Of a DNA stretch of 38,972 bases, positions 23,769 to 33,065 are shown piece after piece; position 1 is the stretch's first letter, and each line of letters begins with the position of its first letter. A model generated the notes under the pieces. The model made no database searches. It saw nothing but the letters and a program-made list of their open reading frames with translations, and had not been told where the DNA came from. Source of the stretch: a virus. The stretch is taken from positions 1 to 38,972 of the IMG/VR virus record IMGVR_UViG_3300035698_010794. The stretch is one strand, 5' to 3'. The position numbers were made by a program, and so were the translations under genes.

Positions 23769-24359
23769 TCATTTCCTTTTATAATTATTTAAATAAGTGT
23801 CTGTTTTTTTATGACAACTAACACATAAAGTTCTACCATTATCTATTGCAAATCTTAATTCTGGATAATCGCAAAATGGTTTTATATGGTCAGCATTTAA
23901 CTTTCCTCCAACTTGTCCACAAAATCTGCAAGTCCATTTATCTCTTTCAAAAACTGCTTCTCGCCATAATTTATACTCAAAGCTATTCCTTATCTTAGCA
24001 TTTATTGGCGTAATTCCTCCCTTCCAACAGTGGAGTTTTTCTTTTACATTTTTAATGCCCTCACTAATCTTTTTTCTATGCTCTACTGACATCTTTTTTC
24101 CTTTCCAATATCCTTTTCTTCCTGAGTTAGCATAACTAAGTTTTTGGGCACGACTCATATTTTGCTTTGCTTCTTTTGTATGCTTTTTACCTTTTAACGC
24201 TTTAGATATATTAGGTTTCGGTTTCCCTTTTTGAACTAGGCTAATTTTCTTTTTTGACTCTTCAGTATGCTTTCTTCCTTTTCCCCATAAAGTAAAATTT
24301 GGGTGTCCTTTTTTGAATCTATATCCTGAGCCAATTGTATTACCCTTTTTGAATGGCAT
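23769..24359 (-). CDS. HNH homing endonuclease with NUMOD3-type repeats
   Basis: The start is the ATG at 24359 (MPFKKGN...), giving 196 residues; the longer frame would begin inside the leader pseudoknot. Residues ~25-95 hold NUMOD3-like DNA-binding repeats (GRKHTEESKKKIS, GKKHTKEAKQNMS, GKKMSVEHRKKIS). The C-terminal HNH has WKGGITPINAKIRNS, CRFCGQVGGKLNADHI and LCVSCHKKTD with four Zn-binding cysteines. Such free-standing nucleases spread by cutting DNA that lacks them. The gene has its own promoter and RNA leader and sits behind the last glycosyltransferase gene. Confidence 0.9.
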   Translation of the reverse strand: MPFKKGNTIGSGYRFKKGHPNFTLWGKGRKHTEESKKKISLVQKGKPKPNISKALKGKKHTKEAKQNMSRAQKLSYANSGRKGYWKGKKMSVEHRKKISEGIKNVKEKLHCWKGGITPINAKIRNSFEYKLWREAVFERDKWTCRFCGQVGGKLNADHIKPFCDYPELRFAIDNGRTLCVSCHKKTDTYLNNYKRK

Positions 24360-24373
24360 AACTTTAAAATTAA

Positions 24374-24422
24374 ACGCCCCCAACTGACAGGCAGGGAGCG
24401 TTGTATAAAAAAGACCCGTCAG
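24374..24422 (-). ncRNA. H-type pseudoknot leader of an HNH gene (copy 1)
   Basis: On the reverse strand CTGACGGG (24415-24422) pairs with CCTGTCAG (24384-24391). ACGCTCCC (24394-24401), in the loop of that stem, pairs with GGGGGCGT (24374-24381). Both stems are 8 bp with one G-U each. The loop TCTTTTTTATACA is identical to copy 2 at 32295-32343, while the stems differ by compensatory changes. The transcript from the adjoining promoter would begin right at the pseudoknot. Confidence 0.75.
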
Positions 24423-24430
24423 CTATTTTA

Positions 24431-24458
24431 ATTATATCAACTTTCTTAATTTTGTCAA
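24431..24458 (-). promoter_or_regulatory. Strong sigma-70 promoter of the HNH gene (copy 1)
   Basis: On the reverse strand TTGACA (24453-24458) and TATAAT (24431-24436) are spaced 16 bp apart. The elements lie within the last codons of the glycosyltransferase gene, so the endonuclease module brought its own promoter. Confidence 0.7.
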
Positions 24459-25640
24459 ACCTTCCTTGTCATATTTCTTTTCATATTCTGCTCCTCTATA
24501 GATATTTTCTTTTAGATTCTTTTCTATAAAGTCTGCTAATTTCTGTTGAGTTTTACTTTTTCTATAAAGTTCTTGTACATATTCTGGTGCGTCACGCATT
24601 AATTCTAACCAACTCCACTGGAAAATACTTAATCCTCCGTTCTTTTTTCCGTGTTTTTCCATATTTAGTTTGTCCCAAGGTTGCGAAACAAGTATTTCGT
24701 TAAAAGTCTTTTTCTTTCTTTTATCTATGAATCTTCTCTCCCCTTTCATAGCGACAGCCGACATCTTCATTATGCTGTCCATTACTTCTTTTCTACCTTT
24801 TCTAAGCCAATTTAAGTAGGCTCTTTCTCTCCAATCATCCATACCTAAAGCGTAGCTGATAGCCAAGACGTTGTATTTATAGTGGTCGTGATTGTAAGAA
24901 TAACCTCTTGATGAAGCTAAATGATAACCTATGGCTTGTGGGTGAACTGATACCGTAGAGCCGAACATCCACCATTTCATATCTAAATAAAACTCTCCAC
25001 CGCCGTAAGCTGTTAGATGTGCTTTGGAATCGTCTAGTCCAGGGTAACCTCCAAAATCTAAAAATTGGTCTTTTCTAACTACCACAGAACAATGCCCCAA
25101 AGCAGGAATATAAAATGATTTTTCAGTAGATAGGCAACGATTACTCCAAGTTCCTTTGATTTCTTCGCCTAATTTAATAGTGTATTGATGGCCTAAAGTA
25201 TGAGGGCTTGGTGGGTAAGCACCCATCCAACCTATTACTCCGTGAACCATACCACCTGTTTCGTCTACTGTCTTAATGGCGTTTTTAATAAACCCTGGTC
25301 TGTAAGCCATATGAGCATCACTTATCCATAGGTACTTTCCTAAAGCCGCCTTAGCTCCTATATTACGAGCAGAGTGATTACCAGCCATTGGGTCTCTGAT
25401 TACTCTTAAGATTCTGCTCCAATAAATCCCTCTCGGCATTATGTAGTTAGTCGTTCCAGAGTTTCCAGTTCTTGGGAATTCATCATCATTAGAGCAATTA
25501 TCAATTACTATTATTTCAAAATCTTTATAAGTAAACCCGTCTGCTTCTAAGCAGTGAGCTATGGAATAAATTGTATGGACTATGTCACTAAATTCATTGC
25601 GTGCCGGTATGATAACTGATATTAGTGGTCTGTTCTTCAT
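24432..25640 (-). CDS. GT-A glycosyltransferase resembling polypeptide GalNAc-transferases
   Basis: The 402-residue protein has the GT2/GT27 start SVIIPARNEFSDI, EIIVIDNCSND, NHSARNIGAKAALG, and a DxH metal motif in LWISDAHMAYRPGF (Asp108, His110). It also has AYGGGEFYLDMKWWMFG at 211-227. The DxH in place of DxD and the GGGE...(M/R)xW segment followed by a Gly/His ending (AIGYH) resemble polypeptide GalNAc-transferases, which start mucin-type O-glycans on Ser/Thr. The lectin domain of those enzymes is missing. It overlaps the methyltransferase gene by 4 nt. Confidence 0.7.
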   Translation of the reverse strand: MKNRPLISVIIPARNEFSDIVHTIYSIAHCLEADGFTYKDFEIIVIDNCSNDDEFPRTGNSGTTNYIMPRGIYWSRILRVIRDPMAGNHSARNIGAKAALGKYLWISDAHMAYRPGFIKNAIKTVDETGGMVHGVIGWMGAYPPSPHTLGHQYTIKLGEEIKGTWSNRCLSTEKSFYIPALGHCSVVVRKDQFLDFGGYPGLDDSKAHLTAYGGGEFYLDMKWWMFGSTVSVHPQAIGYHLASSRGYSYNHDHYKYNVLAISYALGMDDWRERAYLNWLRKGRKEVMDSIMKMSAVAMKGERRFIDKRKKKTFNEILVSQPWDKLNMEKHGKKNGGLSIFQWSWLELMRDAPEYVQELYRKSKTQQKLADFIEKNLKENIYRGAEYEKKYDKEGLTKLRKLI

Positions 25641-26602
25641 ATCTTAGGCAAACTACATTTTGCTAAAACTATTGCTTCGCTATTGGAAATTTCTGTTGGT
25701 TCTCCTTTATTAGTCAAGAATTCTATCTTCTCAAAATACTCTGATAAGACATTGTAAAACTCCTCCGATTTCCATTCCCTAGTGTGGTATCTGTTACCTG
25801 GCTGGACTTTACTTATTTTAGGATGGTTTCTATTAGGAGTTGAGATAAAGAATTCAGTAGCTCCATTTTTAACATCATAACTTCCCCTTTTGTCTTTTTT
25901 GGCGAAAACAATTATGTTCTCTAAAAACTTCTTATAATCAAAGACGTGCTCTATTACCTCTATAGATACTACAAAATCAAACTGCATAAACTCTCTTGAG
26001 TCGTTGATAATATCAATGTTGTCAAAAGAAATTTGGGAAGAGTAATAGATGCCGTTTTTCTGTCTATTAAAAGCCTCTTTTGCAAACTTGATTGACTCTG
26101 CGTTTTTATCTATACCCCAAACAAAATCAGACTCTTGAGATAAGACATTACTTCCTATTCCACAACCACAACCTACATCTACCACTTTAGGTTTCCAGAT
26201 ATACTTTGGGTATTGTGGGTGGTCTAAAACCCTTCTTATAAAGAAGTCTTTAATGAAAGTGTACATTGCTCTTGTATCACCCCATAACAATTTGCCCGAT
26301 TTCTCAAATTGTATGATGTTAAACTTCCATTGGTCTTTATCTTCCATTTCAGGGTTTTCTTTGTATTTTGGGTCGGTAATTCCGTTCTTATTGTGTCCTG
26401 TGGGGTCTTTAATGGGCTTCTCCAATGGTTTTGGGGCTGTACTTAACTCTTTACCCCTTGCTTTCCTTTCTTCGGCTTCTTGAGCCTTTCTACCATCAAT
26501 CTCTTTTACTTGTTTGTTGTAGCAATCTACACAAAGATTATTACCAAAATCTAATGGTATTTCTTTTTCACATACTTCACAGAACCTTTTATTTTTTGGC
26601 AT
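25637..26602 (-). CDS. Methyltransferase with N-terminal zinc ribbon
   Basis: With the ATG at 26602 the protein has 321 residues. The N-terminus has a CEVC...CVDC zinc ribbon, then a charged linker to about residue 85. A class I methyltransferase domain follows with VVDVGCGCGIGSNVL, WGIDKNAESI and VSIEVIEHVFDYKKFL. It sits between a small zinc-ribbon protein and the GalNAc-T-like enzyme with overlaps on both sides. Sugar or protein methylation is possible; the substrate is unknown. Confidence 0.8.
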   Translation of the reverse strand: MPKNKRFCEVCEKEIPLDFGNNLCVDCYNKQVKEIDGRKAQEAEERKARGKELSTAPKPLEKPIKDPTGHNKNGITDPKYKENPEMEDKDQWKFNIIQFEKSGKLLWGDTRAMYTFIKDFFIRRVLDHPQYPKYIWKPKVVDVGCGCGIGSNVLSQESDFVWGIDKNAESIKFAKEAFNRQKNGIYYSSQISFDNIDIINDSREFMQFDFVVSIEVIEHVFDYKKFLENIIVFAKKDKRGSYDVKNGATEFFISTPNRNHPKISKVQPGNRYHTREWKSEEFYNVLSEYFEKIEFLTNKGEPTEISNSEAIVLAKCSLPKI

Positions 26603-26777
26603 CTTTGAATATCTTTTTAATTGGTTCAAAGCATTTATCACAAACTAATCTTGTTACTTGTACTGGTTGGCTTTGTGTGTTTTTTAACGTGTATTGTTTC
26701 TCTATTGAAGTTATTGAGGCAAGTTCATCGCCTTTTTTAATTTCTTTTCCACAGACATCGCAAAAAGTTTTAATCAT
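26589..26777 (-). CDS. Small zinc-ribbon protein
   Basis: The 62-residue protein has one zinc site made of CDVCGKEI near the N-terminus and LVCDKCFEPI near the end, with a beta-hairpin-like middle. It overlaps the methyltransferase start by 14 nt. The same CxxC type begins the methyltransferase itself and the 75-residue protein further upstream in this operon. Confidence 0.65.
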   Translation of the reverse strand: MIKTFCDVCGKEIKKGDELASITSIEKQYTLKNTQSQPVQVTRLVCDKCFEPIKKIFKDAKK

Positions 26778-26797
26778 TGGTCTATTGTTTAATTATT

Positions 26798-27397
26798 TTA
26801 ATTAGTTAAAAATTCTTCTAATTGACCTTTGGTGTTGTTTTTGATTCCGTACCTTCTATGAAACTCTCTATGTGCTTTTTCTGATAAAGTAACTCCGTTA
26901 TCTATTGCAAAACGTAATTCGGGATATTGAGCAAAGTTTTGGATATGATGTGCACGTAATTTTCCTCCTTTTATTCCATATTTCTGACAAGTCCAATTAT
27001 CTCGAGCAAATACTGCTTCTCGCCATAAATGAGCTTCTATGCTATTCCTGATTTTATGATTTTCTGGAGTAATACCTCCTTTCCAATTAGGATGATTCTT
27101 TCCTGTAATTCTTTCATCTCCTTTTTTGAAACGAGTTCTACCTTTATTCTTTAAGTTTACTGGAGTTGTTCTTATTCCTTTCTTAAAATCATTTTTTAAT
27201 TGTTTACCCCAACATTTAGATGAACAAAATCTCGTAATCCCTTTTTTAATATGTGATTGTTCTCTATAAAATTTTTCTCCACAAATTTCACAATTAAACC
27301 ACTCTCCTTTTAATATTCTCTGTTTTGGATAACCAGATTTCTTTCTCGCCCATTCTTTTTGATATACTCTATTATATTCTTTATCTTTAAATGGCAT
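26798..27397 (-). CDS. HNH endonuclease with altered zinc site
   Basis: The 199-residue protein has an N-terminal zinc finger (CEICGEKF, FCSSKCW) and a C-terminal HNH-type domain (WKGGITPENHKIRNS, AHHIQNFAQYPELRF). Compared with the paralogue at 23769-24359, the second Cys of the first CxxC is Tyr (CQKYG) and the last Cys pair is replaced (LSEKAH instead of LCVSCH). It may be Zn-free or inactive. Its start overlaps the GT4 stop (TAATG), so it depends on that transcript. Confidence 0.85.
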   Translation of the reverse strand: MPFKDKEYNRVYQKEWARKKSGYPKQRILKGEWFNCEICGEKFYREQSHIKKGITRFCSSKCWGKQLKNDFKKGIRTTPVNLKNKGRTRFKKGDERITGKNHPNWKGGITPENHKIRNSIEAHLWREAVFARDNWTCQKYGIKGGKLRAHHIQNFAQYPELRFAIDNGVTLSEKAHREFHRRYGIKNNTKGQLEEFLTN

Positions 27398-28659
27398 TAT
27401 TGTTCAAAGAAAAGAGGTTGTATTTGGTTTTTGAAAATCCAATCATACGAAAATTTCTGCTTTATTTTATTAGACCCTTTAAGAGCACGATTGGTACTCA
27501 TCTCTGAAACTATTATCTTAGCTACATCTTCCATAAATCCATCTCTATTGTCAAAGTTAATCTTTTCATCTAATCCACCGAACTTGAAGTATAGGGCGTT
27601 TTCTCCGGCAAACTCTTTTAATGGTGGAACTGACTCATTTAGAATTAACAGACATTTAGATAGCATAGCCTCTAAAAGAATAAGTGAGCAGTTTTCTGAA
27701 ATAGATGGGAATACGAACAAGTTTGATAATTGGAATAATTGAGATACTACTTTTCTTGGAATTCCGTGTTCGTTCTCTGGGACATTTTCTAATGAAGTGA
27801 ATATCACATCTGTCCTTTCTAATCCTTTAGATTCGGCAAGTCTTAACATATCGTCTATTAATTTCTTGTCCTTATCGGCATTAGCGTGAGCATTACAGAC
27901 TATTAAACATACTTTCTTACCAGCTTTTTTAAGTTTAGCCATTACCTCTATCACGATGTTTACTTGTTTTCCACTTATCATTCTTGGCGTTGAGACTGGA
28001 TATATCTGTAAGTAGTCTGCTTCTAAGATGTTGTATTTGTCTATTAGAGATTTAACTAATGGATATAAGTTCCAGAATAAGCGAGGGTCAACTGGGTTGT
28101 GTATTATTCTGACATCTTTAGGGAATAAGCTATATGATTCCGCCGCCCTAATTAAATGAAAATTATTCAAATATACTAACTTTGAATTAGCTGGTAACTG
28201 GTATCTTAATGTATGAGGGTATTCCAAACCATTAGGCATTAAATTAGGAACTGAGTGAATCCAGTGAAACCATTTAATCTTAGCTTCTTTGGCTAATTTA
28301 TGTATTGCTTCGCAGTAAGGCAAGAACCAGCCTTGAAAAATCATATCGTGTTCTATGATTATATCTATGTCTTTAGTGTGTTCTTTAAGAGCCTTGTAAG
28401 CAGTCTCAACTTGGTTTTGGTAATCATCATCTACTGGTTGATGACCACTATAATCTACTAATGTAAAACGTGGAACTATCTTTCTAATTTCTACCCCTTT
28501 TGGCACTTTGTCGTCATCTTTAAAATTGTCGTGAACGAAAAGCACTGTCTTGTAACCATATTTTACCAGAGCCGTTAATTGACTTTCAACCACGCTACAT
28601 AACGAGTAGGCTGAATCAAATTCGTAGAAGGATGTTAAAATTCCTATTGTTGGTTTCAT
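27397..28659 (-). CDS. Glycosyltransferase family 4 (GT-B fold)
   Basis: The 420-residue protein begins with TIGILTSFYEFDSAYS and has the N-terminal acceptor domain (HDMIFQGW, WFHWIHSVPNL), then the donor-binding C-terminal half with QIYPVSTPRMISGKQ and the GT4 motif FVFPSISENCSLILLEAML (E-x7-E type). It transfers a sugar with retention of configuration. Coupled by ATGA to the zinc protein upstream. Confidence 0.88.
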   Translation of the reverse strand: MKPTIGILTSFYEFDSAYSLCSVVESQLTALVKYGYKTVLFVHDNFKDDDKVPKGVEIRKIVPRFTLVDYSGHQPVDDDYQNQVETAYKALKEHTKDIDIIIEHDMIFQGWFLPYCEAIHKLAKEAKIKWFHWIHSVPNLMPNGLEYPHTLRYQLPANSKLVYLNNFHLIRAAESYSLFPKDVRIIHNPVDPRLFWNLYPLVKSLIDKYNILEADYLQIYPVSTPRMISGKQVNIVIEVMAKLKKAGKKVCLIVCNAHANADKDKKLIDDMLRLAESKGLERTDVIFTSLENVPENEHGIPRKVVSQLFQLSNLFVFPSISENCSLILLEAMLSKCLLILNESVPPLKEFAGENALYFKFGGLDEKINFDNRDGFMEDVAKIIVSEMSTNRALKGSNKIKQKFSYDWIFKNQIQPLFFEQ

Positions 28660-31484: not shown

Positions 31485-31533
31485 ATTGAGTGGGGTATCA
31501 TCTATAAAAGTGTGATTTATTCTACTCACGATT

Positions 31534-31562
31534 AAACAAGCCGATTTTCTGCTTGTTTTTTT
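31534..31562 (+). terminator. Rho-independent terminator
   Basis: AAACAAGC (31534-31541) and GCTTGTTT (31551-31558) form an 8-bp stem that runs into an uninterrupted T-tract. A weaker hairpin (TGAGTGG at 31487 with CTACTCA at 31522) precedes it. This ends the late forward operon. Confidence 0.8.
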
Positions 31563-31933: not shown

Positions 31934-32239
31934 ACGAGAAGAAAACACAGAAGAAGAAAACGCATAAAAGGATTTAGTTTTGCTACAAGAATGGATTGCA
32001 AGGTTAGAGATAACTTTACTTGTCAGATTTGTGGCAGAGAAACCGACTTAGAAGTTCACCACATTTGCAAAAAAAGTGTTTGCTTAAAAGAGTATGGCTG
32101 GTCTATATACGAAGCCAATCATAAAAATAATGGTATAACTCTTTGCACTTATTGTCATTTTAGACAGCACATAGAAAATCTATGGAGAAAGAACATTAAA
32201 ATGTTCAGAACCATAATTGCTAGTAATAGCAGGGGATAA
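31934..32239 (+). CDS. HNH endonuclease with a probable ACG start codon
   Basis: The conserved N-terminal basic segment RRRKRIKGFSFATR lies upstream of the first ATG (31991), in the same frame. No ATG, GTG or TTG precedes it. AAGGTGA is followed, after exactly the same 6-nt spacing as in the preceding gene, by ACG at 31934. Read from there the protein has 101 residues with the HNH core FTCQICGRETDLEVHHI and LCTYCHFRQH. Either ACG initiates or the start was mutated. The stop lies inside a terminator. Confidence 0.7.
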   Translation, partial: TRRKHRRRKRIKGFSFATRMDCKVRDNFTCQICGRETDLEVHHICKKSVCLKEYGWSIYEANHKNNGITLCTYCHFRQHIENLWRKNIKMFRTIIASNSRG

Positions 32240-32257: not shown

Positions 32258-32286
32258 TTGCTATCCTTAAAGAAGTGTGTTATACT
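32258..32286 (+). promoter_or_regulatory. Promoter of the HNH gene (copy 2)
   Basis: TTGCTA (32258-32263) and TATACT (32281-32286) are 17 bp apart, directly after the terminator. Start of transcription is expected near 32293, two bases before the pseudoknot. Confidence 0.65.
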
Positions 32287-32294
32287 TTAATTAG

Positions 32295-32343
32295 CTGCGA
32301 GGTCTTTTTTATACAACACTCCCCTCCTCGCAGTTGGGAGTGT
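32295..32343 (+). ncRNA. H-type pseudoknot leader of an HNH gene (copy 2)
   Basis: CTGCGAGG (32295-32302) pairs with CCTCGCAG (32326-32333). ACACTCCC (32316-32323) pairs with GGGAGTGT (32336-32343). Both stems are perfect 8-bp helices. The loop TCTTTTTTATACA and the tail up to the ATG match copy 1, while paired bases change in step between the copies, for example ACACTCCC/GGGAGTGT here and ACGCTCCC/GGGGGCGT there. Confidence 0.78.
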
Positions 32344-32357
32344 TTAATTATAAAATT

Positions 32358-33065
32358 ATGCCAAGTGGTGTTTATAAAAGAATATGGGGAATTACAAAGA
32401 AGCAAAAAAGAGAAATAATAAATCTTCGTGAAAAATTCTTGTCTTATGGTGATATTGCTAAGTTAATAACAGAAAAATATAAAGTCAACATTAGTCGTCA
32501 ACGCGTTCATCAAATTACTTCTGGGTACAATTCTCCTTGTTGCAACAAAAAATTGATGAAAGAACTATATAATCGTATAAAAGAAAGAGATGGTTATTGT
32601 TGTCAGTGGGCTAATTTGTGTGATGGTAAAGAGAAAGAGTCTAGTAAATTAATAATCCATCATTTAGATTTTGATGATAGAAATAACGATCCATCAAATC
32701 TTATTACTTTATGTAGGAAGTGCCACGGTTCTTATCATTCTACATATCATCTAAATAAGAATATAACTCTTAATCGTTCTGGAAAATTAGTTGAACGAAT
32801 AAAAATTAAATGTAAATGGTGTAAAAAGGAAATTGAAGTTATTCCTAGTAAAAGAAATAAAAAATACTGTAATGAGAATTGTCGGAAAAATAGAACAAAC
32901 AATAAGGCTTTACAGTATTATATGTTAGCTGTTTTTGATAAAAATACCGTAGTTGAATTGGCAATAAAAACTGGTATTTATCAACCCGCTGTAAGTAAAT
33001 ATATATCACGAGCTATTAGGGAGTATGATTTACCAAGAGTAAACTTATATAAAAATAAAAGATAG
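32358..33065 (+). CDS. HNH homing endonuclease
   Basis: The ATG at 32358 (MPSGVYKR...) follows the pseudoknot; a longer frame would start inside it. The 235-residue protein has an HTH-like N-terminus (EKFLSYGDIAKLITEKYKVN), an HNH core (RDGYCCQWANLCDG; LIIHHLDFDDRNNDPSNLIT; LCRKCHG), a second zinc site (CKWCKKEI, YCNENCRK) and a C-terminal HTH-like part (VVELAIKTGIYQPAVSKYI). It abuts the next promoter at its stop codon. Confidence 0.88.
   Translation: MPSGVYKRIWGITKKQKREIINLREKFLSYGDIAKLITEKYKVNISRQRVHQITSGYNSPCCNKKLMKELYNRIKERDGYCCQWANLCDGKEKESSKLIIHHLDFDDRNNDPSNLITLCRKCHGSYHSTYHLNKNITLNRSGKLVERIKIKCKWCKKEIEVIPSKRNKKYCNENCRKNRTNNKALQYYMLAVFDKNTVVELAIKTGIYQPAVSKYISRAIREYDLPRVNLYKNKR

Follow-up and report, generated by a model that had tools for sequence, protein, structure and literature searches.

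The window, by which we mean the whole stretch of DNA analysed, is a virus record of 38,972 bases. It carries two leaders of one design: copy A (32294–32357, + strand), upstream of a gene for a 235-aa HNH endonuclease (32358–33065, + strand, ATG at 32358; Pfam HNH PF01844, 7.3e-05), and copy B (24360–24423, − strand), upstream of a gene for a 196-aa NUMOD3-HNH endonuclease (23769–24359, − strand; Pfam NUMOD3 9.1e-13, HNH 2.5e-06). Both show, in order, a sigma70-like promoter, a spacing of about 7 nt, the 5′ arm of stem 1, a U-rich loop, the 5′ arm of stem 2, the 3′ arm of stem 1, the 3′ arm of stem 2, an A/U-rich tract and the ATG. In copy A, the promoter read from the sequence is TTGCTA-17 nt-TATACT (32258–32286, + strand; score 9/12 in a composite scan). 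Stem 1 begins about 7 nt past its −10 box, at the presumed 5′ end of the RNA, with the arm GCTGCGAGG (32294–32302), and is followed by the conserved loop 1, TCTTTTTTATAC (32303–32314). The 5′ arm of stem 2, AACACTCCC (32315–32323), the 3′ arm of stem 1, CCTCGCAGT (32326–32334), and the 3′ arm of stem 2, GGGAGTGTT (32336–32344), were assigned by covariation and arm-pairing tests, and an A/U-rich initiation region without a Shine-Dalgarno sequence, TAATTATAAAATT (32345–32357), leads to the start codon. In copy B, on the − strand, the promoter is TTGACA-16 nt-TATAAT (24431–24458; 12/12), and the arms assigned by covariation are GCTGACGGG (24415–24423) and CCTGTCAGT (24383–24391) for stem 1 and AACGCTCCC (24394–24402) and GGGGGCGTT (24373–24381) for stem 2. 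Its loop 1 (24403–24414) is identical to that of copy A, and its initiation region, TAATTTTAAAGTT (24360–24372), is likewise A/U-rich and devoid of a Shine-Dalgarno sequence. The initial annotation had described a promoter, interlocked stems and an HNH start codon at both sites, which direct reading of the sequence bore out; the stems, given there as 8 bp long, are indeed two and crossing but measure 9+9 bp in both copies. The gene of copy B and an HNH-like ORF (26798–27397) are embedded in a block of glycosyltransferase genes plus a methyltransferase gene (24432–28659, − strand).

Homologous leaders were found beyond the window in three other virus records and two genomes, and two further cases with a promoter and crossing stems are more distant. 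Copy C was an exact-loop match in IMG/VR 3300009788_000240 (L007), and scanning that record with a descriptor gave the divergent copy D. Copy E was retrieved from another virus record with a covariance model of stem 1, and the rebuilt model retrieved copies F (a whole genome), G (a virus record) and H (a second genome, L515). Copy I (L523) was a weaker match (E about 1e-3) with the same layout and a 33-nt loop. Copy K (L072, IMGVR_UViG_3300033553_000404) was retrieved only by a scan for a promoter with crossing stems and is a candidate by architecture rather than by sequence homology; its virus record appears to read TGA as glycine, as ORFs lengthen under code 25. Copies I and K carry less weight than copies A–H, because they were picked by the same descriptor. 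Both stems are kept in all ten cases (A–I and K), each with a promoter, stem 1, an A/U-rich loop, stem 2, an A/U tract and an ATG. The −10 box lies 3–13 nt before stem 1 in these copies, the distance from the start of stem 1 to the AUG is 61–71 nt in eight of them, and in nearly all the sequence after stem 2 is UUAA. Crossing stems of 10+10 bp also occur at J (L514 3031–3110), upstream of the ORF MKPPLSKRY in the virus that carries copy G, but this pair was left out of the count since its promoter is not clear.

Copies F and H are in Patescibacteria, as the genome sets were drawn from the phylum of the genome holding contig L294, Candidatus Gottesmanbacteria; in these sets, too, the leader was rare (two genomes among several hundred). 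No leader was found at E 0.003 in 398 genomes from the phylum of Mediterraneibacter, an absence that is suggestive at most because the Infernal filters were stricter in that search. Exact-loop patterns in IMG/VR gave mostly chance matches, the genuine ones being L007 and 3300033148_003050, and a pattern scan of genome contigs gave chance matches only. Blastn against cultured phages returned nothing relevant, and neither the MCP-related virus records nor the TM7 and Manatee Spring phages contained a copy. Low-scoring matches (L418, L419, L428, L430, L512, L516–L522 and L524) were rejected, as they lacked crossing stems or lay within coding sequence. When about 4 Mb was scanned on both strands, the majority of the strongest crossing stems linked to a promoter were family copies; strong matches outside the family had weak promoters (8–9 of 12), and offset controls gave a few stems of comparable strength. 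The covariance-model search proposed in the initial annotation did retrieve further covarying homologues, and the leader did not prove to be an already described RNA family: with the Rfam 15 covariance models, no family exceeded its gathering score for the leader, and only a tRNA-like match elsewhere in the window and sub-threshold chance matches were returned.

Covariation was evident in both stems. Among copies A–D, 98.6% of the cells pair and 8 of the 18 pairs are changed on both sides; none of 500 shuffles reached this level, and sliding the partner by 1–3 columns lowered the pairing to 36–54%. The compensations reported earlier, C-G to A-U in stem 1 and A-U to G-C in stem 2, were confirmed. 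In an alignment of seven copies, pairing in stem 1 reaches 100%, and both partners have changed in 6 of its 9 pairs, figures that lean towards stem 1 because the alignment was fitted to it. As an independent test, the arms of each of the ten copies were paired with those of the other copies. Mean self-pairing was −17.5 kcal/mol for stem 1 and −14.5 kcal/mol for stem 2, versus −5.3 and −7.6 kcal/mol, respectively, with swapped arms. Nested single-sequence folding gave z values of −2.2 and −1.0 and would not alone have revealed the structure. The crossing-stem structure is hence well supported, and with the homologues the covariation upholds the original claim of a conserved RNA structure recurring before HNH genes.

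The spacing of the stems limits how they can coexist. The linker between them (L3) is 0–4 nt in the observed copies, whereas a rigid A-form calculation gave a straight-line minimum of 5–6 nt across the shallow groove for 9–13 bp; the minimum at 6 bp, across the deep groove, was roughly 10 Å. On this rigid-helix estimate, the complete double stem cannot form coaxially, because L3 is shorter than required. Hence, of the pseudoknot claimed initially, the crossing stems stand, but a fully paired two-stem pseudoknot is sterically excluded. A knot is feasible in this model if two to four outer pairs of stem 1, often G-U or A-U, open; otherwise the stems would alternate. In nested folding, stem 2 is preferred in nine of the ten full leaders, and the 5′ half alone folds as a largely intact stem 1 in all ten copies, which makes an order of stem 1 followed by stem 2 plausible. 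Two further ideas were discarded. Pairing of loop 1 with the tail as a lock on the start site lacked specific covariation (self −1.8, swapped −1.3 kcal/mol), and a TTG/GTG start further upstream, within the leader, has an open frame in copies A, B, C and E but meets stops in D and H.

The genes behind copies A–G are of HNH type and belong to several families, including HNH PF01844 (A), NUMOD3-HNH (B), HNH (D) and HNH_3 (F). The proteins of C and E are related (35% identity) and have no Pfam match, and they carry an HNH-like WxxDHxKP motif. The ORF of copy G, whose N-terminus resembles that of the protein of copy A, is cut short after about 29 codons and is followed by a TnpB (OrfB_IS605) gene (L511/L514, around G438:C1:44500–45800), an arrangement that probably reflects one mobile element inserted in another. 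Copy K precedes a NUMOD4-like HNH protein, as judged by reading the sequence rather than by Pfam. Copy H precedes a large serine recombinase (L515; Resolvase 5.7e-34) and copy I a DnaD-like helicase loader (L523; phrog_2514, 7e-31). The leader was initially taken to travel with homing endonucleases; it does recur before HNH genes but is not specific to them, and because of the latter two cases we regard it as accompanying genes for mobile DNA and phage replication, most of them, though not all, of HNH type. That the HNH protein controls its own expression, as was also proposed, becomes less likely, because the near-identical leaders A and C (65/71) precede dissimilar proteins.

Possible insertions beside these genes were also noted. 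Leader A is closely preceded by an HNH ORF of 82 aa (window 31991–32239), and leader D by a related stretch (L007 5565–5780, 42% identity), which suggests that one HNH gene was repeatedly inserted beside another. In genome G403 (L513 4536–5411), the leader-HNH gene immediately follows a gene for a tyrosine integrase, a hint of an integrated element.

Several known leaders were compared with the present one. In the T4 gp32 operator, a 5′-terminal pseudoknot precedes a start region that is UUAAA-rich and less structured (PMC535899). The leader has the same layout, a crossing-stem knot whose presumed 5′-terminal position follows from the promoter and an adjacent A/U-rich start region containing UUAA(A). 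It differs in that the T4 operator serves one single-strand-binding protein gene, has a Shine-Dalgarno sequence and forms a knot of about 28 nt, whereas the crossing-stem regions here span about 50–77 nt, with a long stem 1 and a very short L3, and lie on mobile-enzyme genes. The tisB 5′ pseudoknot, which is required for 30S and S1 binding (PMC7708055), is likewise at the 5′ end of its RNA, but it belongs to a type I toxin mRNA whose RBS is distant and sequestered. T4-type homing-endonuclease genes (I-TevI, segB, mobE and seg43(25)) are regulated through leader structure (PMC2988022). They share with the present genes a structured leader directly upstream of a phage homing endonuclease, and the seg43(25) hairpin is also upstream of, not on, the RBS. 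However, the understood T4-type leaders sequester the RBS in transcripts from upstream promoters, as in I-TevI and mobE, where late transcripts start from an internal promoter and so lack the inhibitory stem. Here the promoter lies ahead of the entire structure, no Shine-Dalgarno sequence lies beside either start codon in the window, the A/U tract is outside both stems, and the two stems cross and covary across records.

These precedents and the layout make post-transcriptional control of the start site our best guess: the leader is probably a real control element, judging from its sequence, and a cis-acting 5′-UTR element acting on the start site of the adjacent mobile-DNA-enzyme gene is the reading we favour, at somewhat less than an even chance. 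The leader would extend from the transcription start set by its own promoter to the start codon of the enzyme. Stem 1, at the RNA 5′ end, would fold first during transcription; once the 3′ arm of stem 2 had emerged, it would pair with the loop of stem 1, yielding either a knot in which the outer pairs of stem 1 are open or an alternative hairpin. The knotted 5′ end would then lie 6–18 nt upstream of the start codon, separated from it by the A/U-rich tract without a Shine-Dalgarno sequence. Since most genes of this phage lack Shine-Dalgarno motifs, this tract, outside the stems, looks like an ordinary initiation region. The knot could control translation in one of two ways, by serving as an operator on which a single-strand-binding protein nucleates (T4 gene 32 type) or by acting as a standby or S1-binding structure for the 30S subunit (tisB type), and the structured 5′ end would also shield the mRNA. 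Translation and/or stability of the mobile-DNA-enzyme mRNAs is most likely what the leader controls. Against this reading, translation of other genes in this phage presumably proceeds without a leader of this kind, and no gene for a gp32-type single-strand-binding protein was identified among the window ORFs examined.

A serious rival is that the leader is a passive stabiliser, in which the terminal stem keeps pyrophosphohydrolase and 5′-dependent RNases away from the 5′ end and so extends the life of the mRNA, while stem 2 merely reinforces it. 5′-terminal stem-loops are known to stabilise bacterial mRNA, and RppH of B. subtilis requires unpaired 5′ nucleotides (PMC3997798); in most copies stem 1 starts at the presumed +1, at the very 5′ end like those stabilisers. 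Known stabilisers, however, are single hairpins without a crossing second stem. A simple hairpin would suffice for protection, which leaves the two crossing stems and the near-constant distance from stem to AUG unexplained, and copy F has about 4 unpaired 5′ nucleotides. Although we consider it doubtful as the whole explanation, stabilisation may act alongside translation control. Transcription attenuation, with stem 2 as a terminator-like hairpin and stem 1 competing sterically, appears improbable. Stem 2 is GC-rich in most copies with U-rich sequence next to it, both stems cannot be complete together, and in copy K stem 2 ends in a U run; yet K is the exception, and in most copies the U tract is regularly broken (UUUAAUU), whereas a normal-looking terminator in the window, near 31,520–31,550, ends in seven T. 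The stems also share no sequence, unlike those of classical attenuators.

Could the conserved element act as DNA, as operator palindromes or as a recombination or insertion site travelling with the gene? It accompanies mobile enzymes, and leaders A and C are almost the same although the genes behind them differ. Their near-identity, however, begins just past the −10 box and extends as far as the start codon, whereas around and above the −35 boxes the two sequences are unrelated; conservation that starts at the predicted start site, not upstream, fits a function as RNA, as does the fixed position relative to promoter and AUG. Moreover, the arms stay complementary although their sequences vary freely; a DNA-binding protein that recognises a particular sequence would not allow this, and RNA pairing explains it better. 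We therefore regard a DNA-level role as very unlikely. A ligand-binding riboswitch of H-type pseudoknot design, the ligand role suggested at first, seems if anything a shade less probable: in size and topology the element is similar to leaders of the preQ1 or SAM-II class, and loop 1 is conserved among copies A–C, but F, H, I and K differ freely from one another in their loops and junctions, the linked genes point to no metabolite, Rfam offers no match and we found no evidence for a ligand. A trans-acting guide or cofactor RNA or a ribozyme for the endonuclease, raised earlier from the co-occurrence with HNH genes, is hardly credible for some 50 structured nucleotides that are continuous with the mRNA, have no conserved catalytic core or Rfam match to guide or ribozyme families, and also precede the serine recombinase and DnaD-like genes.

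The host of the window phage is likely a member of the tiny Patescibacteria, judging by its structural proteins and the scarcity of Shine-Dalgarno motifs: its portal protein has just two matches among 50,697 phage records, one being a TM7 (Saccharibacteria) phage and the other an environmental relative, and the best match of its capsid protein is the same TM7 phage. A bolder and rather unlikely proposal is that the leaders form an RNA class confined to Patescibacteria and their phages, a Shine-Dalgarno-independent translation switch in which the incompatible stems alternate, and co-transcriptional refolding or a shared host/phage RNA-binding protein times the mobile-DNA enzymes. Structured leaders on phage endonucleases are known, and the covarying crossing-stem leader is previously uncatalogued; no earlier description was found in the literature searched, chiefly papers available without subscription. 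It adds an RNA motif that genome annotation currently misses and bears on how selfish DNA enzymes keep their expression tolerable. Little is known of gene control in Patescibacteria and their phages, most of which cannot be cultured; the leader offers a concrete handle, its defined start, two testable helices and natural variants giving a way into the control of genes without Shine-Dalgarno sequences. Elsewhere in the window, the tRNA-like Rfam match (RF00005, 709–777, + strand, 39.2 bits, without an ARAGORN call) is possibly a degenerate tRNA or an integration site.
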